A stretch of DNA of 64,000 nucleotides from an uncultured Prevotellaceae bacterium (GTDB lineage: Bacteria; Bacteroidota; Bacteroidia; Bacteroidales; Bacteroidaceae). The stretch spans positions 114,892 through 178,891 of the forward strand of contig CASGAM010000041.1 in NCBI GenBank assembly GCA_949299545.1, written 5' to 3'. Within the stretch, counting starts at the first letter, position 1. Every line of letters begins with the position of its first letter. This document shows, piece by piece, positions 21,142 through 34,240 of this stretch. A model generated the notes under the pieces. It was not told the origin of the DNA and ran no database searches. It saw only the letters and a list, made by a program, of their open reading frames with translations. The position numbers and the translations under genes were made by a program.

Positions 21142-21612
21142 AAAAAGCCTTCACTCCTTCACCCTGTCCGTATAGTGTTATAAAACAATGGTTTACGGGT
21201 GAAGGACTTTTTTGTTGTTGTCTTTCACCGTGCCTTCACCATTGTTACATCCGGAACGGGTTGACGTCTGAATCCGGATGCGAAAAATCTTGTGTTTCGC
21301 AATGTCTCGTCGGTGCCGGCAACTTTGGTTTTTGACCTTGACAGACCCCTGCGTTAGCCCGGAAGGCCCGTAGCGGAAACGGTTGTACAGCGACCTGTCG
21401 CCGTTGTGGTTGCGACCTGTCGCCTTGCAGAGGCGAGCGGTCGCTGTAATGACGGCAACCGCACGCTTTGGCAAGGCGTGAAGAAAAGCAACAGAATGGT
21501 AGATAGTAAACGGTCATTAAAATCCGGTGAAGGGAAAATGCGGGAAGTCCTTCACCCGTAAATAATTATAATGCAGATATTTACAGCCGAGATGAAGGAG
21601 TGAAGGCTTTTT
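21142..21612. mobile_element. MITE-like long-inverted-repeat element, non-coding
   Basis: A 471-bp non-coding block bounded by perfect 20-bp inverted repeats (AAAAAGCCTTCACTCCTTCA at 21142-21161 and its complement at 21593-21612). Thirty bases inward on both sides lies a second perfect 18-bp pair (TTTACGGGTGAAGGACTT at 21192-21209 and its complement at 21545-21562). The equal 30-bp spacing shows one ancestral arm of about 68 bp whose middle has diverged. CCTTCAC/GTGAAGG occurs seven times in the block. The centre holds three copies of the GCGACCTGTCGC palindrome. No open frame looks coding and no clear target-site duplication is visible. A MITE, an IS remnant, or a structured regulatory locus are all possible. 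Confidence 0.55.
21390..21444. repeat. Palindromic repeat cluster A (GCGACCTGTCGC)
   Basis: Two exact direct copies at 21390-21401 and 21412-21423 and a variant in the reverse sense, GCGAGCGGTCGC, at 21433-21444. The outer ends TACAGCGACC (21386-21395) and GGTCGCTGTA (21439-21448) form a 10-bp inverted repeat. The same core recurs at 34084-34138 and at the right end of the window. Confidence 0.85.
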
Positions 21613-21676: not shown

Positions 21677-23746
21677 TCAGAAAGAGTAGCTGACGCCGGC
21701 CGACAGTTCCATCAGACCGTCCGTGTTCTTCATCAGGTTTTTCTTTACTCCGAGGAAATCTTTCTTGAAATAAAGGTTGAAGGACGGTTCCGCAAAGACG
21801 CTGATATTCTTTGTAAGGGCATACCCGGTACGCACGGCGGCAAAGCAACCGAGACTGCTTGTGCCCGAACGTTCTTTCGTCACAATCTTCTTGTTGTCGC
21901 CGGCCTGAATCTCTTTGCTGTAAAGCGTGCTGCTGCGCCGCAGGATGGCGCTGAACGAAGGACCGCAAAGCAGGTAAACGTCCAACCGCCGTCCGGTATC
22001 CTGCCGTTGGTACCAGTTGGAGAAGTTAAAGCTGTAGGCGATGCGGGCATTCAGCAGGTCATAATTGTTACGCCACAACGACGTGAACACATGCGTTCCC
22101 GATTCGTAGTCGGCGCTGTAGGACAGATGGTCCTGTACGCTCAGCCGTTGCCAGCCGATTCGTACGGATACGCCGTGCAGCGGTGTAAAGCGGTAGCCGC
22201 CCTCCGCGCCGGCCTGAAACTGCGGCGAGCGGTCGCCCGCCGGTCTGTCGGCGCGTACGAACTTCAGACCGCCGCCGTAGACGCCGGCCGTCCATTTCGG
22301 ATTTTCGGCCGTGAGGTCCTGCTCTTCCGGTGTATGGTTCCCTTTCTGCAGGCGCACGCCTATATTGATTGACATCGATTTGTCCTTGAAGTTGCGTTCG
22401 CCGTAGACGTTGGAATAAGGAATCGTATAAGACGCCATCAGGTAACGCGGGTCTATAAAGAGCCATGTGGAGCCGCCGATGTTGTACAGAGCCTGAAGTG
22501 AGGCCGTCAGGCCGGTGTAGCCGCAGTGCAGGTGCGTCATGTTCTCGGGCATGCTCTTGATGATCCGCCCTATTTCGCCACCCACTGCGATGTTAAGTGC
22601 GAACGGACTGTCTTTCAGCTTGCGCACGTAGGCCAAGGGGTTGAAAACAGCTTCTAAGCGCAGGGCGGCTGTCGACTCTTTGTAATGGGTTTCGTAAGCC
22701 GGTTGAGATTCGGTGGCGGCGGTGGTCGAACTGCCCCAGTAGTTGTCTGTGAAGTTGCCCGAAAGGCGCAGTCCGAAAGAAGGGTCGAACCACTTGCCGA
22801 CAGCTATCTGCAACGCCGTGCCCGTTGAAGGCATCAAGGGCAGGCTGTTGTTGTGGAAGAAATTGAAACCTTGGGAGATTTCAAAGAACAGATGTCCGTT
22901 ATGACCGGCTGTTTTCAGAGGAACCGGTGTGCGGCGGTACAGGGGCATGGAGATGCCGGCATGGAGTCCGAACAGAACGTCATAGCCCGAAAGGTCGGTG
23001 TTGTTGCTGTGATCGATGCCGTCACCCGTGAGCGCGGCATACGGTTCGACAAAGGCTTCGGCCATATAGCCGAGACGGACACCGAAGCGCAGTCCAGCCT
23101 GCGCCTGCATGATGCTCTTCACCTCGTGTCCGAAAGATGAGAAGGTCACCCCGGCACCGATGGCCGGCGACACGTTGAAGAGGCGGTAGCGCTTGTAACC
23201 GTTGATATACGACATCAGGTCGAAAAGATAGTCGGCGCGTACGGACGTATGATGGAGGCTGTAGAGTTCGTCCGGCACTTGATATTGCACGTAATCCATC
23301 GACAGACGTGCCTGGTGGTATGGGTGTATCTGATAGGTGGCGGAGAGGCCGATGGGAACACCGACCTTCACGTCGCGGGCTCCCTGGGGCTTGATTTTGC
23401 GTGCGCCGGTATGAATGGCGACACTGAAACGTTCCAAAAGGTCGGTACTCAGCGAGTCATTCTTCTCGAGGTGACGTTTCTGCATCTTGTAGAGCTGCGG
23501 ATTGAAGTCCACGTTGGTGTTGACGTTGGCGGTCGTATCCTTTGGAACAGCCGTTTTCTTCTCCGCGTTCACGTTTCCTGTGCTGTCGGCTGTCGCCTGT
23601 AAGCTGTCTGCCGGTACGGCTGTCATGCTGCAGGCCGACGTCGTCGGGCGTATTGCGTCGGTGGCAAAGACATTCGTCATGCTACAGAATGTCAGAGCCA
23701 ATACTGCCAAACAACGTTTTATATCTCTCATCGCTCTTGCTGTCAT
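21677..23746 (-). CDS. Outer-membrane beta-barrel protein, last gene of fimbrial operon
   Basis: A 689-residue secreted protein. The N-terminal signal sequence (MRDIKRCLAVLALTFCSMTN from the second Met at 23731) is followed by a Thr/Ala/Asp-rich stretch to about 90. After that come many alternating amphipathic strands ending in the outer-membrane-type C-terminus AGVSYSF. Two similar blocks (about 105-390 and 400-689) suggest two barrels or one large barrel built from a duplicated unit. It lies 21 bp after the OmpA-like gene and is the distal gene of the operon. I do not recognise a named family; it may be an assembly platform or anchor. Both Met 23746 and 23731 are plausible starts. Confidence 0.78.
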   Translation of the reverse strand: MTARAMRDIKRCLAVLALTFCSMTNVFATDAIRPTTSACSMTAVPADSLQATADSTGNVNAEKKTAVPKDTTANVNTNVDFNPQLYKMQKRHLEKNDSLSTDLLERFSVAIHTGARKIKPQGARDVKVGVPIGLSATYQIHPYHQARLSMDYVQYQVPDELYSLHHTSVRADYLFDLMSYINGYKRYRLFNVSPAIGAGVTFSSFGHEVKSIMQAQAGLRFGVRLGYMAEAFVEPYAALTGDGIDHSNNTDLSGYDVLFGLHAGISMPLYRRTPVPLKTAGHNGHLFFEISQGFNFFHNNSLPLMPSTGTALQIAVGKWFDPSFGLRLSGNFTDNYWGSSTTAATESQPAYETHYKESTAALRLEAVFNPLAYVRKLKDSPFALNIAVGGEIGRIIKSMPENMTHLHCGYTGLTASLQALYNIGGSTWLFIDPRYLMASYTIPYSNVYGERNFKDKSMSINIGVRLQKGNHTPEEQDLTAENPKWTAGVYGGGLKFVRADRPAGDRSPQFQAGAEGGYRFTPLHGVSVRIGWQRLSVQDHLSYSADYESGTHVFTSLWRNNYDLLNARIAYSFNFSNWYQRQDTGRRLDVYLLCGPSFSAILRRSSTLYSKEIQAGDNKKIVTKERSGTSSLGCFAAVRTGYALTKNISVFAEPSFNLYFKKDFLGVKKNLMKNTDGLMELSAGVSYSF

Positions 23747-23767
23747 GCTTCTTCTTTTATGTTTTGT

Positions 23768-26296
23768 TTACCGGCCGGCCTGCAGGCCGTCTTCGTCGGC
23801 AGGGGGGTCCGAAAGGTTATCTGTGTCCGTGTCCGTTTCTCCACCGCCATCCGTTGCCATGCCGTCGGCTTGTGCGGCAGCGGCCTCGGCTGCCGCTTTT
23901 TCCGCCGCCCGTTTGGCCGCCATCTCTTCTCTCAACGATTGTTCGTTTTTCTCCCAGTATGCCTGGAACGATTTTCGGTATTTCTCCGTGAAGTTGCCGT
24001 CGTAGCGCAGGTATTCCAGGTATTTCGGGTCATTCAGGCAGCATTTCACCATCGGGTAGCCCCAGTCCCCGCGTTGGTAGCCTTGATCGTCCACATTAGG
24101 GTCGTTTTCAGACGGAATGAAGAAATCGTCATACATGAAGTGCATGGCCGGGTAAAGTTCTAATGTTGTATTTTTGTTGTTACCCAGTAATTGAAAACGT
24201 AATGTGGCTTGTGTGTAGAGTACCTTTGGGTCTTCAGGGTCAAATTGACTGGTGTCGCTCAGCAAGTAGAGAGCCTGTTCGTGGAAAAAACTTGCTCCTT
24301 CGTGGTCTTGTGCAGCATAAACGACAACCCGGTTCCAGGGTGACGAGTTCGCTACGGTGTCGCGTACCACCGGGTCGTTCCATCCGCCGTTGAGACAGTC
24401 GAGGAAGCGTTTCATTTTGTCGAAGCGCGGTTGGTTGGCCAACAGATTGTAAGCCACTGAATCCGCCATATAGAAGTCGCCGGCTTTACATAACATCGTG
24501 ATGTGGGTCGTTACGATGGCTGCGTCGTTCACCCAACCGAAAGTGGAGCCGTCAAAATGTGTCTTCTCTCTCTCTATTAATTTAGTGCCGGCCAAGCTCC
24601 AGTCTAAATAAGGTTCCAACAGTTTGGTGTCGAACGTGTCGCGTGCCAGGTAGCATTGTGCCAGCAGGTAAGCCGCTAAGGCCCAAGGACGGTTGTTGGC
24701 ACTGGCATCGCGTACCGATTTGTAAGCCTCGCGCGCCAATACTTCCAATTCTTTCGGGTCCTTGACGACCTTGAACAGTTCGTAGAACTCATAAGGCATT
24801 TGCTTCTTGCCGGCATGGTAGTCGGGATCTCTTAGGTATTGTTCGTAGATTTCATCGGGCGTTTTCACGCGGTTGGTATAATAAGAGAACTTGAAGTCCA
24901 CCACACGCAGGCGCGGCAGGATTTTCTCTTTAATCATCTCATAATAGGGCAGCGCCCTGATTTTTGTTTCCTGAACAGTCGTATTGGTGTTGGCGGCGAT
25001 GATGTCCCTCACCTCTTCGGCCTGTGCCGTCAGCGAGTCTTTCTCCAGCAGGTCGGCCACGTCGCTCCATGATGCCACATCGGCGCTGACGGTGTAGAGC
25101 CCAGGCGCGAACTGGGGGAAGTTGCGCCCTATTTCTGTTCGCAGGAACTGTGCGCGTTGCAGGCAGAGCCGTTCATTGGTGGCGATACCGCCGTCGGGCG
25201 ACGATTGTCCGTGTATCTCGATGCCCGTGATGCCGGCGTCGGTGCTGAAGGCATAACGTTTTACGTCGTTAATCAGCTGGTTCATCTGCACCATGTTGAG
25301 CGAGTCGGTCGGGTCGAGTACGGCCTCGCCCACTTTAAAGTTCAGGTTCAGCTGCCGTTTGTCGTCGAGACGTTCGCTTTTGCCGATACGCTCGTAACGT
25401 TCCATCTCGATGGGCAGGGTCATGGTGTTGTATTCCAAGAAACGCATGGGTTCTCTGTCATAGCCCTCATCCAAGCATATACTGTCCATTTGGTACACGC
25501 GATTGTAATCCTCGAACCAACGTTTGGCCACTATCTTATAATGACGTTTCATCTTGATGGGGTACAGTCGCAAGAAAATCGAGACGGAGGATTCTTCGCG
25601 TTCACGCATGAAACCCTCATCGCGGTAAGCTATCAACGGGTCGTTATTTTCATTGAAACCCATGCGTCGCTTCTGTGTTTCCTGGTATTCAATACCATCC
25701 TTTATGAAAGGCCGTGCTATGGCAAAAGTGTCTCCTGTTTCCAATTCAATAATGACAGGTGCCATGACAAAGCGTGCGTCGTTGCGTGTTTCATTCTCCG
25801 ATAAATAGTATTGCAACGGGCCAAGTGTTTTTTGATTGCCTGTGCGCACCGGAGGCGGGACAGAACGATTTTTTGCTTTACCTATAACGGTTGTGGTGCC
25901 GAGAGTAAAACCATCATCTTTGATAGTGATTGTTATATCAAGACGGTTCCTGACGGGTTCAAGTATAGGGTCTCCTGTTCTCGGAACCACGATAATAGCG
26001 CCATTTGCAGTCAATTCCATCTCGCAGAAACCTTCGGAATTGGTTTTGACCACCACTTCCGCACCGCGCATCAGCTTTTCGATGAGCGCCATGTCCTTTT
26101 TGATTTGTCCGTGAACGTTTGCGGCTTTACCGGCATTGTAGAAACCGTTGACGGGAATACCGTCGAGAGGGCGTTTCGACCCGTCGGCATTCTGCATCAT
26201 CACCGTTACCGTTATCTTCTTGAACTGTGCGTGCAGCTCTGTCGGCATGAAGAGGCTGAGGCCGAGGATGAGCAATAAGAGACGTATGGTTTTCAT
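23768..26296 (-). CDS. Large periplasmic protein with OmpA-like domain, fimbrial operon
   Basis: An 842-residue protein with a signal peptide (MKTIRLLLLILGLSLFMPTE, cut after LHA-Q). The N-terminal part (about 25-130) resembles a carboxypeptidase-regulatory-like beta domain (DGIPVNGFYNAG, NSEGFCEMELTANG). An OmpA C-like peptidoglycan-binding region is at about 320-400 (LNFKVGEAVLDPTDSLNM, then IEIHGQSSPDGGIATNERL and RAQFLRTEIG). A helical, TPR-like region of about 400 residues follows. The tail is unusual: an Ala/Glu coiled segment (AAKRAAEKAAAEAAAAQADG) and an acidic Thr/Asp/Gly stretch. It is 9 bp after the second DUF3575 gene. The likely role is to couple the fimbrial machinery to peptidoglycan; this is inference. 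Confidence 0.78.
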   Translation of the reverse strand: MKTIRLLLLILGLSLFMPTELHAQFKKITVTVMMQNADGSKRPLDGIPVNGFYNAGKAANVHGQIKKDMALIEKLMRGAEVVVKTNSEGFCEMELTANGAIIVVPRTGDPILEPVRNRLDITITIKDDGFTLGTTTVIGKAKNRSVPPPVRTGNQKTLGPLQYYLSENETRNDARFVMAPVIIELETGDTFAIARPFIKDGIEYQETQKRRMGFNENNDPLIAYRDEGFMREREESSVSIFLRLYPIKMKRHYKIVAKRWFEDYNRVYQMDSICLDEGYDREPMRFLEYNTMTLPIEMERYERIGKSERLDDKRQLNLNFKVGEAVLDPTDSLNMVQMNQLINDVKRYAFSTDAGITGIEIHGQSSPDGGIATNERLCLQRAQFLRTEIGRNFPQFAPGLYTVSADVASWSDVADLLEKDSLTAQAEEVRDIIAANTNTTVQETKIRALPYYEMIKEKILPRLRVVDFKFSYYTNRVKTPDEIYEQYLRDPDYHAGKKQMPYEFYELFKVVKDPKELEVLAREAYKSVRDASANNRPWALAAYLLAQCYLARDTFDTKLLEPYLDWSLAGTKLIEREKTHFDGSTFGWVNDAAIVTTHITMLCKAGDFYMADSVAYNLLANQPRFDKMKRFLDCLNGGWNDPVVRDTVANSSPWNRVVVYAAQDHEGASFFHEQALYLLSDTSQFDPEDPKVLYTQATLRFQLLGNNKNTTLELYPAMHFMYDDFFIPSENDPNVDDQGYQRGDWGYPMVKCCLNDPKYLEYLRYDGNFTEKYRKSFQAYWEKNEQSLREEMAAKRAAEKAAAEAAAAQADGMATDGGGETDTDTDNLSDPPADEDGLQAGR

Positions 26297-26305
26297 GATT
26301 TGCTG

Positions 26306-26842
26306 CTATTTGATGATGTAAGCGAACGTCACGCCGAGTTTGTAGGGCAGCAACGCATAGCCGGTGGCGTTGCGTCGGTCGGTGAAACGGTCGTAGGTGT
26401 AATATTGCCGGTGGTTGTAATACACCGCGCCCAGGCCGGCGTGGCATTCCAGCACCCAGCGGAGTCCTAAGCTGAACGCATAGCCGAAGGTGAGGCCGAG
26501 GCCGTAGGCATCGCCGTCGTAGTTCTCATGACCCCATGTGACGTCATAGCTCAGGCCGACGGCCGACACGCCCACGAAGGTACGGGTCATCGGGCGGCCG
26601 TTGAACCAGTAGCGGAACTCGGGCATCACGCCCAGCATCTTTACTTTCAGGCCCCAAGGGTGGCTGTTACCGAACACCGACGCATTGACACTTGTCTTTT
26701 CGCCTGTCACGATTTCGAGCCCGAGGTTGGGCGTCATCGCGACATCCCACAATGCATCGGTCTTCACTGACAGCAACTGGGCCTGCATCCGCATGCCGCA
26801 CAACAACATCAATAAGACCAACAACAAACTTTGCCGCTTCAT
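26306..26842 (-). CDS. DUF3575 outer-membrane protein (second copy)
   Basis: A 178-residue DUF3575 protein: a signal peptide (MKRQSLLLVLLMLLCGMRMQ, cut after AQA-Q), then LLSVKTDALWDVAMTPNLGLE, the diagnostic opening of the family, and about eight beta-strands with aromatic girdles typical of a small outer-membrane barrel. DUF3575 genes accompany fimbrillin loci throughout Bacteroidales, but their exact role in fimbrial biogenesis is not established. It follows the second fimbrillin gene by 88 bp, with a hairpin in the gap, and is 9 bp before the OmpA-like gene. It is much shorter than the other DUF3575 gene at the head of the operon. Confidence 0.88.
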   Translation of the reverse strand: MKRQSLLLVLLMLLCGMRMQAQLLSVKTDALWDVAMTPNLGLEIVTGEKTSVNASVFGNSHPWGLKVKMLGVMPEFRYWFNGRPMTRTFVGVSAVGLSYDVTWGHENYDGDAYGLGLTFGYAFSLGLRWVLECHAGLGAVYYNHRQYYTYDRFTDRRNATGYALLPYKLGVTFAYIIK

Positions 26843-26880
26843 CTGCTTTGCGTTTTTTAGAATATTGTGTTTTTAAAGAA

Positions 26881-26919
26881 ACATCCCCGACCGCTTAGGG
26901 GGACACGGCCGGAGGATGT
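26881..26919 (-). terminator. Hairpin between fimbrillin and second DUF3575 gene
   Basis: ACATCC (26881-26886) pairs with GGATGT (26914-26919), and the inner CCGACCG/CGGCCGG extends the stem with one bulge and one mismatch. On the minus strand it is followed by TTCTTTAAAAAC. The T-tract is weak, so partial termination (attenuation) is more likely than a full stop. Confidence 0.5.
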
Positions 26920-26930
26920 ATAAAAAGTGA

Positions 26931-28121
26931 TTAGGGAATTTCTCCAGGTTCCATTGTAACTGCACCACCTTCAGTCCATTCATTTAAGGTGGCTTTCAGC
27001 TTTACATCTTCCAGACTGTTAATCTGCAAGTCGACGGAGTATTTTTTGCTGGCCTCGAAATTGCCACCACCTGCCAAGGTCAAGGTGACAGGACTCGGAG
27101 TTACAATCTTATCGCTTCCTGCTGCGCGCAAGTCAACCGACAGCGTATAGGATGTTTGTGGATAAAGCATGATACTTTCTCCAACAGGAGTCTTGTCAGC
27201 AAGCTTTTGAACCTGCACAGCATTGGTTGCACTGATCTCTGTACCTTCGCTGTCTTTCAGCTTGAAGTCTGCAACACTGGTGTTCCGCTGATAAAGCTGT
27301 CCTTGTTTTGAGGTCGTATAACCTGTGTGGGCGACACAAATACCGACATCTCGTATTGCGTCCTTGATGGTAATACCTACAATTTCAATCTCCTGTCCTT
27401 CTTTGTTTTTAAGATCTTCTGTCGCGGTGACAGTGAAGGTCAGTCGTGTCAACAGATGTTTAAGTTCCAAAGTCGGAGTTGTCGCTCCTTCTTCCTTGCG
27501 GAAATAATCGGCACTGTATTTGTTATTGGTATCACCTTCAGCGCATCCCCAAATCAGGTCTTGTGAACCATCCAAAGTGTATCTTGCCAAGAGAACAGAA
27601 CCACCGGCTGTTGCAAAGTCAACATCCACTGATGCTACGTCAGTAGAGTTTTGTATAACAGCCTGATTATTGTCATACGGGACAGTAGGAGTGTACGCGA
27701 AGAAACTGTAACAATAGTATTGCGTTAACGGATAATAGTACACTCCGTCCCATGTTACATTACCGTCAGCACATGTTGCTTTGACATTGCGCATAAGGCA
27801 AGACAATCCGGAAGTCAATCCCCAATTAATATCGGGAATACCTTCACCACCGTTTTGTTTGGATGTAGCAAGACAATAGATGTAGAGATCTGTTATATCG
27901 GTAATATCCTCTATCGCCGCGCGTGTGGAAGGTTTGTCCTTGATGACGCTGACGCCGCCGGTAACGCCGGAAGACAATGAGATGGGCACTTCGCTGTCAC
28001 CCGGCAGGAACGGTACAAAGTTCTCTGACAGGTCGTCGGAAGTACAGCCGGGCAGCATCAGCAGAGATGCCGCCACAGCCATAAGATATGATTTTTGTTT
28101 CCTCATACCGGATTTTTGCAT
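26931..28121 (-). CDS. Fimbrillin-family lipoprotein (second fimbrillin)
   Basis: A 396-residue exported lipoprotein of the fimbrillin/Mfa1-like family. The signal is KQKSYLMAVAASLLMLPGC, with lipobox L-P-G-C. The start is either 28121 or Met 28106 (MRKQKSYL), which fits the signal better. The mature part shows the two-domain fimbrillin pattern: DLYIYCLATS, the YYPLTQYYCYSFFAY strand, LLTRLTFTVTATE at the domain boundary and the closing LNEWTEGGAVTMEPG. An Arg in PSTRAAIEDI near the N-terminus is placed where trypsin-like proteases trim fimbrillins before polymerisation. It follows the first fimbrillin by 43 bp. Major versus minor subunit cannot be told. Confidence 0.88.
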   Translation of the reverse strand: MQKSGMRKQKSYLMAVAASLLMLPGCTSDDLSENFVPFLPGDSEVPISLSSGVTGGVSVIKDKPSTRAAIEDITDITDLYIYCLATSKQNGGEGIPDINWGLTSGLSCLMRNVKATCADGNVTWDGVYYYPLTQYYCYSFFAYTPTVPYDNNQAVIQNSTDVASVDVDFATAGGSVLLARYTLDGSQDLIWGCAEGDTNNKYSADYFRKEEGATTPTLELKHLLTRLTFTVTATEDLKNKEGQEIEIVGITIKDAIRDVGICVAHTGYTTSKQGQLYQRNTSVADFKLKDSEGTEISATNAVQVQKLADKTPVGESIMLYPQTSYTLSVDLRAAGSDKIVTPSPVTLTLAGGGNFEASKKYSVDLQINSLEDVKLKATLNEWTEGGAVTMEPGEIP

Positions 28122-28164
28122 TCAATTCTAATATCGAAATTTATTGGTAGATATAAGATTACGG

Positions 28165-29487
28165 TTATACGTCGTCATCTCCGAATACCGGTATTTTTTC
28201 ACCTTCTGTCCAGCCGGTCAATTCAACTGCTACGCTGATGGCCTCGCTGCCGTAGAGTGTCATCTTCACTTCGTAGCTGGTACCTGTCTGCAGAGGAGCG
28301 TCTCCTGTCAGTTTGATGGTACCTACCAACGGCTCGCCATAGTTGTCACCATAGTTTGTACCGTTATCACCATCCAGATTTTCTTTTACATAAACTTTCA
28401 GCTCGTATGCCGTTTCGCCCGGAGCTACCATGATGGCATCACCGATTGTCTGGAATGTTGCGCCATCTGTATTGGTGATAGCGGTTGAGGTCAAATCTGT
28501 CATTGTCTGATTTGCACCTGCACGTTCTTTCAACTCGAATGTAGCAGTTTTATCTGCGAATTCAATTAATGAACCGGGGGCTGCATCTGCATAAGCTACA
28601 CACATTCTACCGTCGCACTTGGATGTTACTTCCACTTTGTAAACTTCGAGATTCTTTGCAGACTCAGATCCGCCCGTAACGGAGAAGGTAAGACGGGTCA
28701 GCAAGTGGTCCATGCTGATGCTTGGTTTTACACCTGCACGGGCTGTTTTGCTGGAGTAACCCTCACCTGTATTGTCTGCCATACCTGCCATCAAATCCTG
28801 TGTACCATCAATGGTGAAGTAAACATATTGTGTTTGTTTTCCGTCGGCGTCAGCAGATTTTTCACCTGTTGCCATATCATCAAAGAAAGCCTTTCCGTCT
28901 TCAGTATAAACTGTAGGATATTTATTGGTTGTATAATTTGCATCAGCAGCCCATGTACCGTCTGCATCCATTCCGGTTTGACCCACACCCGGAGTATAAG
29001 TAGCGGCAGCATCGTCTATGCGGTAAGCAAAGAATTTGTGTGTGCTGCCGTCTTGCGGATAGAACTTCAGGTCTTGTTTTACATTGTCAGTACCGGCTGA
29101 TTTTTCCCAGGTGATATCACCGGTTGCTCCTGTAGGTGCTGTTACCTGCAGATGGTTGAAGTTGACAACGTCTTCAATGTCAGTTAAAGGATTACTAACC
29201 TCTGCATCAGAATATCCCCATGTTGTTGGTGCCCAATCTGCATCATCCATGTTCATCATTACTAAATGCAGGGTTTCACCGGCCCACACATTTTCCGGGG
29301 CGTCTTGAATACCGCCAACCGTACCCGTACCACGGACACTGATTGAAGGTGAACCCAATGACAGGGTGACAGGTTGCATGGCATCTTCTTCGGTTTGCGG
29401 CATGTTGGCCGTCACCTCTGTGTCGTTAGAGCAGCTGCACAAAGCGCCCACTGCCAGCATAGAAGCTAAAAAATACGCTTTTTTCAT
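28165..29487 (-). CDS. Fimbrillin-family lipoprotein (first fimbrillin, likely major subunit)
   Basis: A 440-residue fimbrillin-family lipoprotein: MKKAYFLASMLAVGALCSC with lipobox L-C-S-C. Family features in order are TLHLVMMNMDDADW, the strand HKFFAYRIDD, IDGTQDLMAGMAD, LLTRLTFSVTGGS and a terminal VELTGWTEGEKIPVFGD. The residues SISVRGTGTVGG hold an Arg before the first strand, a plausible processing site that frees the N-terminal strand groove. It lacks Cys in the mature domains, is Asp/Thr-rich and has the lowest G+C of the operon genes by eye. It is 69 bp after the tip-like gene. Position and composition suggest the shaft subunit, but this is inference. Confidence 0.9.
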   Translation of the reverse strand: MKKAYFLASMLAVGALCSCSNDTEVTANMPQTEEDAMQPVTLSLGSPSISVRGTGTVGGIQDAPENVWAGETLHLVMMNMDDADWAPTTWGYSDAEVSNPLTDIEDVVNFNHLQVTAPTGATGDITWEKSAGTDNVKQDLKFYPQDGSTHKFFAYRIDDAAATYTPGVGQTGMDADGTWAADANYTTNKYPTVYTEDGKAFFDDMATGEKSADADGKQTQYVYFTIDGTQDLMAGMADNTGEGYSSKTARAGVKPSISMDHLLTRLTFSVTGGSESAKNLEVYKVEVTSKCDGRMCVAYADAAPGSLIEFADKTATFELKERAGANQTMTDLTSTAITNTDGATFQTIGDAIMVAPGETAYELKVYVKENLDGDNGTNYGDNYGEPLVGTIKLTGDAPLQTGTSYEVKMTLYGSEAISVAVELTGWTEGEKIPVFGDDDV

Positions 29488-29556
29488 AATACTTAATTTT
29501 TAATTAAACATATAGTTAATAAAACACTGTTAGTTATATCTCTATTTCGTCATTGA

Positions 29557-30966
29557 TCATTTCGTTGTGTTCCGGAACTGTTGCCCGATGGCGCGGACGG
29601 CTCTTCCACCGACCACCCAATCGTCTTCGCCCACGCTGATGTCGCCACCATCGATCCATCCCAAGGTAGAGTCGTTTACGGCGATTTCCACCTGCTGGTC
29701 TGCCTGAATATTGAGGTTGATGTCATACGTCCTGCCGGCTTCAAAACCATTCACAATTTCTATCTTGTTGTAACGCAGCGTGCGGATATTCTCGGGCATT
29801 TCTTGCAGGTGATAATAGACCCATACGCCGTAGCTTTCGGTCGGCGGCAGAAGGATGGGGACACCGGCCGGCTGGGTTTCGTCGAGAAGGACGTTGAGCC
29901 CCATCTGGTTGTCAGCCCACCGGTTGGTGGAGCCGTAAGGCGCGTCCGGCCGTTCCACGGGCGGCACGAAGAGGGACGAGCAGTCCGGCACGTTGACGGT
30001 GCCGGCATTGTCGTCGGCCGCGGGACCGTCTTCGATGACGGTATCGTCGACACTCACCACGCCCAGAGCCGGTGTGCCGCCGGGCGCGAAGTCCTGCGCC
30101 AGCATCACGTCGCAGCGCCGCGGTGCAAAGACGCGGATGGCGTCGATGACAACCTTCTCGGCATCCTTATGGACGCCCTGCACGTGGAACTGCATTTTCA
30201 GGAAGGCGTGTTCGAGCGAGAAGACGGGCATGATGTTATACTTGCCCGTGCGGGTACTGTAAACCAGGTTGTTCCAGTTGGTAGCCAGGTATTTGAAGTC
30301 CTCGCCTGTTTCCAGGTTTTCTATCTGTTCTTTGGTGGGGAAAGCGTAGGCGACGATGACATCCTGCGTGCCGTCGATTTCGATGGTACGGACGATGCGG
30401 TCGAAATCGCGCTGCTCATTGATGAGAATGGCATCGTCAGCATAGTAGGCAAAGAAGTTGAAACGGTGGTCGGGGTACATGGAGTTGTAGTAAGGCACGT
30501 TGTTTTCGGTGTCTTCGCCGGCTGTCTCCGCCCCTTCGATTTTCCAGGTCAGGCCGGGCCCGTCGGTGATGACGGCCTTGCGGCCGTTGATGAGACAATA
30601 GGGCACGGCGCCGGTCTCAGGGTTCTCTTCCGTGATGCGGTAGTCGGGGGCTCCCACATAGTCGTGGTTGGCGGAGAGGTAAGCATAGACTTCCAGCTCG
30701 GTGCCGATCCAATGGTCGCGGTCCTCTTCGAATTTGTCGAACGCGCCGCCTCCTCTCGAAATGATGGTGTAGTCGGGGTTGTCCATGGAGATGAGTACGG
30801 GAACCTTGTCCTGCGAGTAGTTGGCTTCGGGGCGGTCGGCCCTGAAGTCTTCGAGGAACATGTCGGGGTAGGAGTTATTGCAGCAGGCGGCAGCCGTCAG
30901 CGACAGCAGAATGCTTCTCGCCACTCCTTTTATGTTTATGTCTGACAATATTTTCATCCTTTTCAT
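29557..30966 (-). CDS. Fimbrillin-like lipoprotein, possible tip or adaptor subunit
   Basis: A 469-residue exported protein with signal VARSILLSLTAAAC (lipobox A-A-A-C, the Cys doubled). The mature part has fimbrillin-like elements: VPVLISMDNPDYTIISRGGG with an Arg before strand 1, HRFNFFAYYADD, IDGTQDVIVAYAFP, LEHAFLKMQFHVQG, and the closing NDSTLGWIDGGDISVG. The insertion carrying YYNSMYPD and the Pro/Asp-rich loop SLFVPPVERPDAPYG are unlike the two fimbrillins. It begins 10 bp after the DUF5119 gene and is cotranscribed. A longer antisense frame on the plus strand (29581-30945) is a shadow. The function is assigned by family pattern and place only. Confidence 0.8.
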   Translation of the reverse strand: MKRMKILSDINIKGVARSILLSLTAAACCNNSYPDMFLEDFRADRPEANYSQDKVPVLISMDNPDYTIISRGGGAFDKFEEDRDHWIGTELEVYAYLSANHDYVGAPDYRITEENPETGAVPYCLINGRKAVITDGPGLTWKIEGAETAGEDTENNVPYYNSMYPDHRFNFFAYYADDAILINEQRDFDRIVRTIEIDGTQDVIVAYAFPTKEQIENLETGEDFKYLATNWNNLVYSTRTGKYNIMPVFSLEHAFLKMQFHVQGVHKDAEKVVIDAIRVFAPRRCDVMLAQDFAPGGTPALGVVSVDDTVIEDGPAADDNAGTVNVPDCSSLFVPPVERPDAPYGSTNRWADNQMGLNVLLDETQPAGVPILLPPTESYGVWVYYHLQEMPENIRTLRYNKIEIVNGFEAGRTYDINLNIQADQQVEIAVNDSTLGWIDGGDISVGEDDWVVGGRAVRAIGQQFRNTTK

Positions 30967-30976
30967 TTGTTCGTGC

Positions 30977-32356
30977 CTACAAATCGATTCTTCCGGCTGT
31001 TTCCCAGTTGTCGATACCGCTTTCGGTGTCTTCGCCGCCGGCCGCCTGGTCTTTCTTGACTTCCAGTACGGCCTCTATGGGCAGTATGGCTTCCTTGACA
31101 GCCTGTTTATATTTCTTTTTATCTTTGTCCCATTCCATGAGTCCCGCCTGTTCGAGCGTGTTGTACAGGTTGATGCACACCCTGTGGAGCTTTGTGCGCT
31201 GTGCGCCTTCGTCGTCTTCGGTGTGGGTGTAGATGGCTAAGTGCATCACGCCCGGTCCGGTACTCCACTCGGGGTTGTAGCTCTGTATGATGCCGATGAC
31301 CTGTACGACGCCGGTGCAGCGGATGACGGCTGCCGCCATGCTGTCGGCCTTTGTCGTGTAGCCGGCGTTGTCGTAGTTAGGCTTGAACAGCACTTTGTAG
31401 GTCTTGTCGGCATCGACATAACCCGTGTTCAGTTCCATGCGTGCGGGAACGCCCGACACTTCGGCTATCATGCTGTCGATGACCACGCCTTCGGCCTTGT
31501 CCACGTCGAATGTGAACGTCAGCCTTTGCGTCACGGGGGTCGGGTGGAAGTTTACGGTCACGGTCTGCGGCGAGCCGCTGTTGCTGAGAGGAACTTCTAT
31601 CAGGTCTACTACATCGGAATAGATGGGTGCAAAATATCCCAGGATGTAATCGGCATAGGGGTTATAATCCGTCCATGTTCCGGCATAGCTCTTGATGTAA
31701 GGACTGCTTGCCGGGTAGTGTTTGTACACTAAGTTGATTTCGGAGTAAAGTCCTTCGCCGTTTTCGCCGGTGACGATGTTGTTCACGTCTTCTTCGATGG
31801 CATCCTCAAAGACATTGCTGTCCCAGGCGTAAGTCAGGATGTTGTAGTCGCCTGCCCGTGCCCACAGCTTGTGTTGCGGCATGGCGGCAGACGGCGTGTT
31901 TTCATCGGGCGTCTCTTCGCCCGGCGTTGCTTCGTCATTGCCGTTGCCTTCGTCGCTTCCGGTATTCTCGCCGTTGCCACTGTCTGTTTCTTCGTTACCG
32001 CCGTTTCCTTCGTCGGTCACCTCGCTGTCGCCGGTTTCACCGTTGCGTGTCATGGGTGCGATGTTTTTTTGTCCTGTCAGGTCGACGGCTTCGTCTGCCG
32101 GATAGAGGAGTGTGCCTTTGTTGTCCGATGCGCCAGAGGTTACCTGGTAATCGTACCTGACGATGTTCGACCATCGTATGGCGGTCACGCGCATGCTGTC
32201 GGGAATCGTTCCGGCATATTCATCGTCCCATTGGAATCGGAAGTCCAGGAGCGTGTGATGCGGGTGGAGGGGCTCGTAGCACAGCTCCACCTCGGTAGAA
32301 CATGCGTAACACAGCAGCCACAACGGCAACAGCAGCCTGCAAATCAACTTCACCAT
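30977..32356 (-). CDS. DUF5119 fimbrial lipoprotein (Mfa2/FimB-like anchor) with acidic linker
   Basis: A 459-residue lipoprotein (LLPLWLLCYAC, lipobox ending C-Y-A-C). It starts with the DUF5119 hallmark CYEPLHPHHTLLDFRFQWDD. DUF5119 proteins are thought to act as cell-surface anchors or length regulators of fimbriae. An unusual low-complexity segment at about 103-160, almost only Gly, Asn, Glu, Asp, Ser and Thr with Pro at the end (NGGNEETDSGNGENTGSDEG is a part), splits the domain. The remainder (about 165-420) has the second beta-sandwich, with VTVNFHPTPVTQRLTFTFDV. Its start overlaps the preceding DUF3575 stop by 7 bp, and the next gene starts 10 bp after its stop. Confidence 0.85.
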   Translation of the reverse strand: MVKLICRLLLPLWLLCYACSTEVELCYEPLHPHHTLLDFRFQWDDEYAGTIPDSMRVTAIRWSNIVRYDYQVTSGASDNKGTLLYPADEAVDLTGQKNIAPMTRNGETGDSEVTDEGNGGNEETDSGNGENTGSDEGNGNDEATPGEETPDENTPSAAMPQHKLWARAGDYNILTYAWDSNVFEDAIEEDVNNIVTGENGEGLYSEINLVYKHYPASSPYIKSYAGTWTDYNPYADYILGYFAPIYSDVVDLIEVPLSNSGSPQTVTVNFHPTPVTQRLTFTFDVDKAEGVVIDSMIAEVSGVPARMELNTGYVDADKTYKVLFKPNYDNAGYTTKADSMAAAVIRCTGVVQVIGIIQSYNPEWSTGPGVMHLAIYTHTEDDEGAQRTKLHRVCINLYNTLEQAGLMEWDKDKKKYKQAVKEAILPIEAVLEVKKDQAAGGEDTESGIDNWETAGRIDL

Positions 32357-33495
32357 GTTGCCTCCTTTCCCTGCTTTTTGCCGGTCGCGGTGTTTATCGC
32401 CATTTCGCGGTAGTACTTCAGAACTTTCTCTTCCGGCGTGTTTCTGTAATGTCTCACCTGAATGTCCTGTACGGTGTCGATGACGCCATCCTTGCGCTCT
32501 TTCTTCATCTTCTTTTCCAGCAACCTCAGGAGCGAGTCTTTCTTTTCCTGTATGGCCTTCGCTGCGGCGATAGAGTCGCGCATCGTTTCGCGGAGTATGT
32601 CTTCACGCTCTTGTGTCTGGCGGCGTACCACCGTGAGCGAGTCTTGTATCTCTATCTTGCGTTTGTAGCGCTCGCGGCCACCCTGAACCTTTTCGCGGAT
32701 GGACCTGAAGCGGTAAACCAACGATACGCGCAGGTCTTGTATGACAGGATAAGGCACGACGTGACGCGCCTTATGACCTGTGTAACTGTAGCAACTGCCG
32801 TCTTCGATATAGCGGAAGGTGTCATATTCCGATATGCGGAGTCCAACGGCACAGCCGAGGTCGAGGTCCAAAAATCCTCGTTTGAATCCGTAGAGGGGAA
32901 TGCTCCATCCGGCTGTCAGTCCGGCATTGTAGCTGTCGCCTTGCCGTCCGTCTCGCCCCAGACACCACGTGAATTTTTCCCATCCTGCATAGGCGCCGAT
33001 GTAATAGGCGCGCCAGGTGCGCGGGTTACGCATTGTCTGACCGGACAGCGTGTTGCGGCGGATTTTTCTGAAGACGGAAACAGGCCATGACAGGGTGGTG
33101 TCCCTGTTTGCCTTTCCGAACTTCCATTGGAACCAGCTCTCATCTTCTTCTCTGCTGCCGCCCAACTTTTTCTCGGCATCGCTCGTGCGCCAATATTTCC
33201 GACCTTCCACCATGACGCCCCCCACGTTGTAGACTACACGCGGATTGATGTTGTGTGATGTGTTCCAATTATAATAGCCGCCCAGCAATACGGAGAATCG
33301 GTTTGAGGTATGGGGACTCAAATCCCATTCTACCGTTGCATTGGGCGTTGTCATTACCCATTCGACTACGTTGGTATGGAAAGATACTCTGTTTTTCCAC
33401 GACAGCGAGTCTCCTTTTGCCGGGGCTTGCGCGAGAATACAACCGCTTATCATTAAAAAACAGACAGTTAAGTACCATTTTCTCATTACCTTCAT
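32350..33495 (-). CDS. DUF3575 outer-membrane protein with coiled-coil tail, first gene of fimbrial operon
   Basis: A 381-residue protein with signal MRKWYLTVCFLMISGCILAQ and the DUF3575 opening VSFHTNVVEWVMTTPNATVE, then a barrel of about 230 residues. A charged helical tail follows (about 260-345, IQDSLTVVRRQTQEREDILR and further heptads) that could reach into the periplasm. The signal could be read by either signal peptidase (ISGC or LAQ-A). Met 33495 or 33486 begins the gene; the open frame up to 33621 runs through the inverted-repeat leader and is not used. It is first in the eight-gene operon, 38 bp downstream of the left inverted repeat of the putative invertible promoter. Confidence 0.85.
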   Translation of the reverse strand: MKVMRKWYLTVCFLMISGCILAQAPAKGDSLSWKNRVSFHTNVVEWVMTTPNATVEWDLSPHTSNRFSVLLGGYYNWNTSHNINPRVVYNVGGVMVEGRKYWRTSDAEKKLGGSREEDESWFQWKFGKANRDTTLSWPVSVFRKIRRNTLSGQTMRNPRTWRAYYIGAYAGWEKFTWCLGRDGRQGDSYNAGLTAGWSIPLYGFKRGFLDLDLGCAVGLRISEYDTFRYIEDGSCYSYTGHKARHVVPYPVIQDLRVSLVYRFRSIREKVQGGRERYKRKIEIQDSLTVVRRQTQEREDILRETMRDSIAAAKAIQEKKDSLLRLLEKKMKKERKDGVIDTVQDIQVRHYRNTPEEKVLKYYREMAINTATGKKQGKEATW

Positions 33496-33532: not shown

Positions 33533-33553
33533 GTTTCTTTTATAGAAATGGGA
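33533..33553. repeat. Left 21-bp inverted repeat of putative inverton
   Basis: Begins GTTTCTTTTATAGAAATGGG and is a perfect inverted match, over all 21 bases, to 33772-33792. It lies in the 5' leader of the fimbrial operon. Confidence 0.9.
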
Positions 33554-33589
33554 TAACTTACTTTAGAACTTGTTATAACTTTTATTATC

Positions 33590-33607
33590 TCTTTTATAGA
33601 AATGGGA
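33590..33607. repeat. Third (direct, partial) copy of the inverton repeat
   Basis: TCTTTTATAGAAATGGGA, 18 bases identical to the left repeat and in the same orientation, giving a second possible recombination site opposite the right repeat. Confidence 0.85.
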
Positions 33608-33618
33608 ACTACAGGGCA

Positions 33619-33650
33619 CAAAGATATTGGTTTGCATTTTTTTAAACAAG
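33619..33650 (-). promoter_or_regulatory. Fimbrial operon promoter inside the invertible segment
   Basis: Minus strand: CTTG (33647-33650), a 20-bp spacer and TATCTTTG (33619-33626), a good Bacteroidota -33/-7 pair. Transcription would start near 33613, about 118 bp before the first operon gene, with the left repeat and third copy in the leader. Confidence 0.7.
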
Positions 33651-33651
33651 T

Positions 33652-33674
33652 AGTGTAGAAAAACTTTCTACACT
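33652..33674. promoter_or_regulatory. 23-bp palindrome directly upstream of the fimbrial promoter
   Basis: AGTGTAGAAA-AAC-TTTCTACACT, perfect 10-bp arms. It abuts the -33 element on its upstream side, as an activator site would. In the plus direction it is followed by TATTTTTATAG and could also serve as a terminator. Confidence 0.6.
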
Positions 33675-33771
33675 TATTTTTATAGTTGTATATGAATTTT
33701 AAAGAATATTTTAAAATTGGCCTTTTGCAAAGGGTTGATAATCATATAAAAAAATGGATTTTAATGCTTAG

Positions 33772-33792
33772 TCCCATTTCTATAAAAGAAAC
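33772..33792. repeat. Right 21-bp inverted repeat of putative inverton
   Basis: Starts TCCCATTTCTATAAAAGAAA and is the perfect complement of 33533-33553. Together with the left copy or the third copy it defines two possible invertible intervals. Confidence 0.9.
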
Positions 33793-34077
33793 GGTACATA
33801 CAGTAATATAGGATAATATGCTTTTAATGAATTAGATATTAGTTATAAGGGTCGTTTGGAACTGTGTAGTAAGCGTTGTACAATATTTAACATAGATTTG
33901 GCTCTACGCTTGTAAGGAAAGTACCGTAATATACAGCTACTAATAGAAATATTAACTGACATTTTGATGTTTTTTTCAGGTTCGTTCGCTTTACAAATGG
34001 GATGTTGTATATATCTATACCTGAAGCGTGTATCGACTCCATGGACAACGGCGCGCGTAAAGGGAAAAAGAGGCCTT

Positions 34078-34144
34078 AAAATTGCGACCTGTCGCTTCAA
34101 TAACAGCGACAGGTCGTGTTGCAGAAGCGACAGGTCGCAAATTT
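34078..34144. repeat. Palindromic repeat cluster B (GCGACCTGTCGC)
   Basis: Outer 21-bp inverted arms (34078-34098 and 34124-34144, 20 of 21 matching) share the core AATTTGCGACCTGTCGCTTC. A third copy, GCGACAGGTCGT (34106-34117), lies in the loop. It sits between the queG stop and the fimbrial promoter. The surrounding 33793-34240 holds no gene I can support; a 108-codon frame through it is made of the repeats. Confidence 0.85.
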
Positions 34145-34240
34145 CGTTGGAAGCGCTTGCAAATTCCATGCATTGCGCAGCGGCCTGGAGATAAGATCTA
34201 TTCCATTTATTAACAGTATGTTATGAATATTTTTTTTGTT

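Follow-up and report, generated by a model that had tools for sequence, protein, structure and literature searches.

A candidate three-site phase-variable promoter upstream of a putative pilus-like operon in an uncultured Prevotellaceae bacterium

Results

An eight-gene operon and its neighbours

The locus of interest lies within a 64,000-nucleotide stretch of a contig from an uncultured Prevotellaceae bacterium (hereafter, the window). Downstream of a non-coding switch region, described below, is a run of eight minus-strand genes with small gaps between them (21677-33495):

32350..33495, minus strand: gene 1, DUF3575, 381 aa (start chosen at 33495)
30977..32356, minus strand: gene 2, 459 aa, no family match
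29557..30966, minus strand: gene 3, 469 aa, no family match
28165..29487, minus strand: gene 4, 440 aa, weak NCBIfam Mfa1 match (26 bits, cut-off 130)
26931..28121, minus strand: gene 5, 396 aa, Pfam Mfa_like_1, fimbrillin-like
26306..26842, minus strand: gene 6, 178 aa, Pfam DUF3575
23768..26296, minus strand: gene 7, 842 aa, no family match
21677..23746, minus strand: gene 8, 689 aa, outer membrane beta-barrel domain

An initial reading of the DNA, made from the sequence alone (the sequence-only reading), called these genes a fimbrial operon. Family matches bear this out in part: Mfa_like_1 is found in one gene and DUF3575 in two, while the Mfa1 match falls far below its cut-off. A PDB search with the proteins of genes 4 and 5 returned nothing for one and a weak antibody match for the other. 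On this partial evidence, the operon appears to be pilus-like, and it is a candidate type V pilus operon. On the other side of the switch, the nearest gene with family support is queG; it points towards the switch, and hence the opposite promoter orientation has no evident target.

Two further kinds of repeat were observed around the operon. Firstly, directly downstream of it lies an inverted repeat that differs from the switch repeat (21142-21213 / 21545-21612; CTTCACTCCTTCAC.. / ..GTGAAGG), and the interval 21142-21612 holds the other strong inverted pairs of the window. A similar motif occurs elsewhere in the same genome (L082:8756-9045, on contig C30), so this repeat looks like a dispersed element. 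Secondly, REP-like palindromic GCGACAGGTCGC / GCGACCTGTCGC blocks occupy intergenic positions in the window (34069-34145 and 21391-21445) and at L081:4252-4338.

Three repeat copies and a promoter that faces the operon

The switch region consists of the following features:

33533..33553, plus strand: site A, outer left (core 33534-33548, TTTCTT-TTA-TAGAAA, then TGGGA); extra copy, in the operon leader
33554..33589, no strand: spacer between A and B, 36 bp (54-bp period); lies within the leader in the sequenced state
33590..33607, plus strand: site B, inner left (core 33588-33602, TCTCTT-TTA-TAGAAA); canonical partner of site C
33619..33626, minus strand: -7 box TATCTTTG, Bacteroides consensus TAnnTTTG
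33647..33649, minus strand: TTG, which we take to act as the -33 element, 20 bp upstream of the -7 box
33652..33674, no strand: interrupted palindrome AGTGTAGAAA-AAC-TTTCTACACT, just upstream of the -33 element; possible operator
33772..33792, minus strand: site C, right (core 33777-33791)

Repeat computation and shuffling confirmed the two elements on which the sequence-only reading was built: a perfect 21-bp inverted pair enclosing 218 bp (33533-33553 / 33772-33792), and a third, exact 18-base copy in the sense of the left one (33590-33607). The former is the single inverted pair in the window with exact 21-bp arms 100-500 bp apart, and 100 shuffles within 500-base blocks produced no inverted pair of even 16 bp. 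With up to three mismatches allowed, the 18-mer occurs three times in the 64 kb, each time exactly (mean of 100 dinucleotide shuffles, 0.04), and the repeat stretch is free of N runs. Across the 2.3-Mb assembly, a 16-base part of the repeat is found at this locus alone when zero or one mismatch is permitted; at up to three mismatches there are 48 occurrences, versus 51 for a reversed control. All three copies carry the core TTA, the sites are near-palindromic, and the segment is non-coding. Sites A and B form a same-sense pair 54 bp apart, while B is separated from C by 164 bp containing the left-facing promoter; measured between core starts, B to C is 189 bp and A to C is 243 bp. Site C shares 21 exact bases with A and 18 with B, and the earlier proposal that the third site gives the right repeat two possible partners is supported.

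Between the outer repeats, TATCTTTG is the sole instance on either strand of TAnnTTTG, the -7 consensus of Bacteroides (PMC4747536). Measured inwards from each site, it is 16 bp from B and 70 bp from A. The well-spaced, operon-facing promoter that had been proposed is right in substance (TTG at 33649-33647, a distance of 20 bp, then TATCTTTG at 33626-33619), and so, given that this promoter faces the eight genes, is the description of the switch as ON in the sequenced state. Of the 67 related promoters introduced below, just 12 have a TTG at a similar spacing (19-21 bp).

The adjoining palindrome had been described as a perfect one of 23 bp; it comprises two perfect 10-bp arms, with three unpaired bases between them. 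At up to three mismatches it has one match in the window. Arms of at least 8 bp were found 15-90 bp upstream in 3/67 related promoters. The palindrome was considered, and rejected, as a common part of such switches: among the loci compared it was seen in copies of the window's own locus alone, and similar palindromes are rare in relatives.

Related invertons in the source genome and the family

Four further site pairs with the core TCTCTT-NNN-AAGAGA (at most one mismatch per site) are present in the source genome, on contigs C22, C37, C34 and C25. The first three directly adjoin a tyrosine recombinase gene; Phage_int_SAM_5 scores over its cut-off in all three of these, and Phage_integrase at C22 alone. 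The contig of the C25 pair contains no tyrosine recombinase match. Looking for a recombinase near similar repeats, as the sequence-only reading had advised, was successful for three of the four elements. The C25 inverton (L120:9648-9835; G000:C25:81647-81834) precedes a small gene whose product begins like a lipoprotein, and has an extra half-site beside its left arm.

Among 399 genomes of the family, exact pairs of this core separated by 145-175 bp were found 109 times, in 43 genomes, and the reversed pattern not once. We read the 78 elements with listed places; they are not independent of one another, as several are near-identical paralogues or belong to related species. Complementary three-base cores were seen in 78/78. 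In 67 elements, one arm and no other has a CAAANNTA box (the -7 box) 11-16 bp inside it; of the remaining 11, eight have the box elsewhere within 47 bp, and in three it was not found. Since the distance from arm to -7 box in the window is 16 bp for B and 70 bp for A, we assign B as the canonical arm and A as the extra site. This reverses the earlier view of the inner copy as the odd one out: by comparative geometry, the copy at 33590 is the normal partner, and that at 33533 is the addition.

The site class probably falls within known Bacteroidota inverton groups (PMC11892184). Over the 12 consensus positions of TCTCTT-NNN-AAGAGA, site B has two mismatches and sites A and C have three each; the window's site may be drifting, or may be served by another enzyme. 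A consensus inverton was also observed before a NusG-family gene, which we presume to be perhaps of the UpxY type (L224; G017:C87:57511-57767), and the site class may therefore serve a capsule locus.

A reversed promoter segment in a sister species

Gene 1 homologues are present in 56 of the 301 genomes of the family search (the source genome included). The upstream regions of 29 homologue loci, eight of them from the same genus, were read. The right kind of inverted pair was found at three of the 29, all in the same genus (G008, G001 and G017), with core-start distances of 175, 175 and 174 bp, respectively (compared with 189 bp for B-C in the window); such a pair is absent from the five other same-genus loci read (L049-L052, L072). 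Other upstream inverted repeats—a second pair in L046, those in L056, L059, L061, L064, L066, L069 and L074, and a 12-bp pair in L047 and L048—do not have the site consensus, and were thus set aside rather than scored as invertons. The sister repeats differ in sequence from those of the window, yet within each species the arms match each other. Downstream, G001 and G017 have ORFs arranged much like the window operon as regards number, strand and size; in G001, the first gene encodes a DUF3575 protein.

The promoter segments of G001 and G017 share one orientation (alignment 130/156). That of G008 is reversed with respect to both, with alignment scores of 47 and 37, whereas shuffles reached at most 21 and 18 (0/1000 shuffles in each case). 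Same-sense scores for G008 are -23 and 6, the latter reached by 11/1000 shuffles, indicating that some same-sense similarity is left. The two comparisons do not count as independent, G001 and G017 being closely related. The window's segment has no significant alignment with G008, G001 or G017 in either orientation. The sister-genome comparison suggested at the outset shows a segment that is reversed between G008 and the other two species, but no reversal of the window's own segment. Neither protein nor paired-site searches found same-species or exact-site relatives in the searched set, from which very near genomes may be excluded, and an 801-bp DNA query against 18 same-genus genomes returned the window's own locus and a 65-bp stretch in G003, and nothing else.

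A recombinase is probably supplied in trans

The source genome contains 11 tyrosine recombinase matches, none of which is on the window's contig. Invertase subfamily members are encoded on C22, C34, C37 and C29, with a fragment on C30 (judged by eye). The C29 gene is a long-frame relative without local sites; it matches from residue 61 of a 401-residue relative, and the N-terminal part may be missing. No serine recombinase (PF00239) match was obtained in the source genome, the assembly of which is 79% complete; this speaks against a serine-recombinase (Mpi) inverton. The sister pairs present a similar picture: no recombinase was found on the contig of the pair in G008 or G017, and the nearest in G001 is ~27 kb away; the tested genes beside these pairs encode a DUF362 protein (G008) and a peptidase (G001). 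As a recombinase is absent near both the window switch and the sister pairs, a trans-acting enzyme is likely. One candidate was rejected, namely a shared, site-less recombinase (the clade of L091, L097 and L102): relatives of L102, at 61-95% identity, occur in 9/17 other genomes of the genus, with or without the fimbrial pair (G003 has a relative and no pair), and the best match in the source genome is 57%.

Extra outer sites recur at other loci

A further exact copy outside an arm was found in six of the 78 elements, always in the sense of that arm. Two of the six were discarded because of flanking N runs; tandem copies at N gaps (L170, L171, L224) were treated as scaffold artefacts. The four elements kept are in G235 (48 bp), G193 (two elements, 23 bp) and G141 (19 bp), compared with 4/1560 in a shuffled-site control. 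Scanning for tandem sites less than 45 bp apart by start was confined to the 78 elements read; exact sites 45-75 bp apart by start were found in two of the 399 genomes, G235 and G243 (53 bp). The G243 element has wider arms (252 and 305 bp apart) and a -7 box ~50 bp from the nearer site, and fits the geometry poorly.

Pairs with 201-231 bp between cores number four in 44 genomes (the 43 above plus G243), with none in the control, and all four hold an extra copy: those in G235, G348 and G077, and a case at an N gap in G017 that was dropped. The inner copy in G348 carries one mismatch, as in the window, while G077 is doubled at both ends and its inner right copy has one mismatch. Given that every pair of this length has an extra copy, the long A-C spacing is best regarded as the result of an added outer copy. 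Besides the window, then, extra outer copies occur at seven other loci in four genera. The third copy, which the sequence-only reading called unusual, is indeed rare, but it has precedents at these seven loci and at the Bacteroides fragilis EPS/large-capsule promoter (PMC4747536, PMC3090145).

In G235, as in the window, the promoter is ON and the doubled end lies on the leader side; the doubled end is away from the -7 box in G193 and G141, and next to that box in G348. The G235 switch controls a DUF3575 / DUF3868 / fimbrillin operon and adjoins a recombinase gene, and that of G077 lies before a DUF3575 gene followed by DUF6562 genes. The two G193 loci have S1-S2 (38/38) and the right flank (167/170) in common, while their promoter segments match at 169/172 when one is reversed and at 117/192 otherwise; we conclude that the inner pair recombined there. 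Their left flanks differ (39/65), so these are two paralogous loci, not one locus in two states.

Discussion

A three-site switch with two predicted ON states

Our preferred reading, to which we give a probability of roughly 0.68, is that the window contains a Bacteroidales phase-variable promoter cassette of the tyrosine-recombinase type, upstream of a pilus-like operon, with three sites that would be served by a recombinase acting in trans, and with the predicted states OFF, ON-low (as sequenced) and ON-high. It builds on the sites, promoter and orientation seen in the window, the homologous pairs and the reversal in sister species, and the recurrence of the extra site; the window copy itself would be active. 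The sequence-only reading survives as regards a Bacteroidales-type invertible promoter in the ON state, and is revised as regards the roles of the copies, the number of states, and precedent.

When modelled in silico, inversion between A and C or between B and C gives an OFF form, and a second inversion with the other partner gives an ON form with a one-site leader. Both routes yield an identical sequence, so that there are four reachable states, two of them ON; the distance from the -7 box to the start codon is 69 bp in the one-site ON form, versus 123 bp as sequenced. Two inversion products with different leaders had been foreseen: the two partners stand, but the states number four, and the leaders of the two ON states differ in length by 54 nt and in site number by one.

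The proposed mechanism is as follows: (i) a recombinase encoded elsewhere would pair site C with B (the normal pair, 189 bp) or with A (243 bp), (ii) either event would turn the promoter away from the operon (OFF), and (iii) a second inversion with the other partner would restore the ON orientation, with site B and the 54-bp block now behind the promoter. By analogy with the EPS promoter of B. fragilis, two leader sites would give low expression and one would give high expression. The prediction of OFF, ON-low and ON-high is made because transcription of the EPS genes in B. fragilis NCTC9343 is inversely correlated with how many repeats separate them from the promoter (PMC4747536, citing Chatzidaki-Livanis 2008). 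Our guess is that a leader site could lower expression through bound recombinase in the path of the polymerase.

Alternative explanations

Another possibility is a plain two-site invertible promoter, in which B and C recombine and A is a leftover or silent copy of no effect. The B-C geometry is canonical, and the G193 reversal lies between the inner pair. DNA stiffness makes sites as close as A and B (54 bp) seem too near one another for deletion between them. However, A has not decayed (A-C share 21 exact bases, B-C 18), extra outer copies recur elsewhere as exact copies, and the promoter-gene repeat number varies among B. fragilis mutants (PMC4747536); we consider this reading rather unlikely.

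We consider it improbable that the locus is a former inverton, locked ON following loss of its recombinase. Such a history would fit the uniqueness of the repeat in the genome, the absence of a recombinase match from the contig, and the off-consensus cores. A dead element should drift, however, and the three copies are identical over 18 bp even though the segment no longer aligns with those of sister species; moreover, the assembly is 79% complete, and the sister pairs likewise have no neighbouring recombinase. Finally, that the repeats merely bind a regulator and do not recombine is barely credible: near-palindromic sites do flank a promoter with a further palindrome, but the three-base cores are complementary in 78/78 relatives, as recombination needs, and reversed segments exist (in G008 and G193).

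Comparison with known switches

The three-site phase-variable promoter that we favour resembles several known systems. The E. coli switch fimS (314 bp, FimB) is likewise an invertible promoter of pilus genes worked by a tyrosine recombinase. It differs in that it serves unrelated pili, has two sites, and relies on local recombinases. An element in another genus of the same family (G235:C84:187041-187286) has, like the window, a leader that contains two sites of the same sense; these are 48 bp apart, and the operon that follows is of the DUF3575 / DUF3868 / fimbrillin type. Unlike those of the window, its sites are consensus TCTCTT sites, and a recombinase gene adjoins.

The arrangement of three sites is already known from the capsule switch of B. 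fragilis, and it is the recurrence of the extra site that is worth testing. The B. fragilis EPS or large-capsule promoter (IVp-I; recombinase Tsr19 = BF2766) is, as in our reading of the window, a tyrosine-recombinase promoter inverton with end-duplicated repeats, and with a variable number of them between promoter and gene (PMC4747536, PMC3090145). Strain NCTC 9343 has the duplication at one end, whereas YCH46 has it at both (PMC3090145). In contrast to the window, IVp-I drives polysaccharide genes and has its recombinase nearby; the comparison here is one of layout and repeat number. Besides its own promoter, Tsr19 also works on a distant one (PMC4747536); that second promoter, IVp-II, is served in trans by a recombinase encoded elsewhere, as we propose for the window, with the difference that the serving enzyme is known. 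A search of mostly open-access literature found multi-repeat invertible promoters in PMC4747536 and PMC3090145 (both B. fragilis) alone; the other papers returned appear to concern different topics, one of them (PMC3047005) DNA inversion in Ureaplasma.

A possible rheostat

More tentatively, and with some doubt, we suggest that tandem outer sites are a recurrent, selected, three-level DNA-inversion rheostat (OFF, ON-low, ON-high) for surface operons of Bacteroidales, in which a 20-54-bp block that carries a site, moved in or out of the leader, would set the dose of pili, and stiffness of the block would prevent its deletion. If this were true, some gut bacteria would set the strength of pili expression, besides turning it on and off, by moving sites around one promoter. 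The read-based inverton callers described in PMC11892184 and PMC8748976 search for inverted repeats and tally a pair of orientations; they could overlook a state distinguished by a 54-bp leader block, or score it as plain ON. A direct test is offered by the multi-site loci in the window and in G235, G348, G077, G193, G141 and G243.

Two minor observations concern these loci. At the paralogous invertons of G193 (L129 and L157, on C2 and C7), the shared flank is where two contigs start or stop, a sign that such loci break assemblies. The three-site element of G243 (L153, on C60) is located between two divergent genes with look-alike signal peptides, and could act as an either-or switch.
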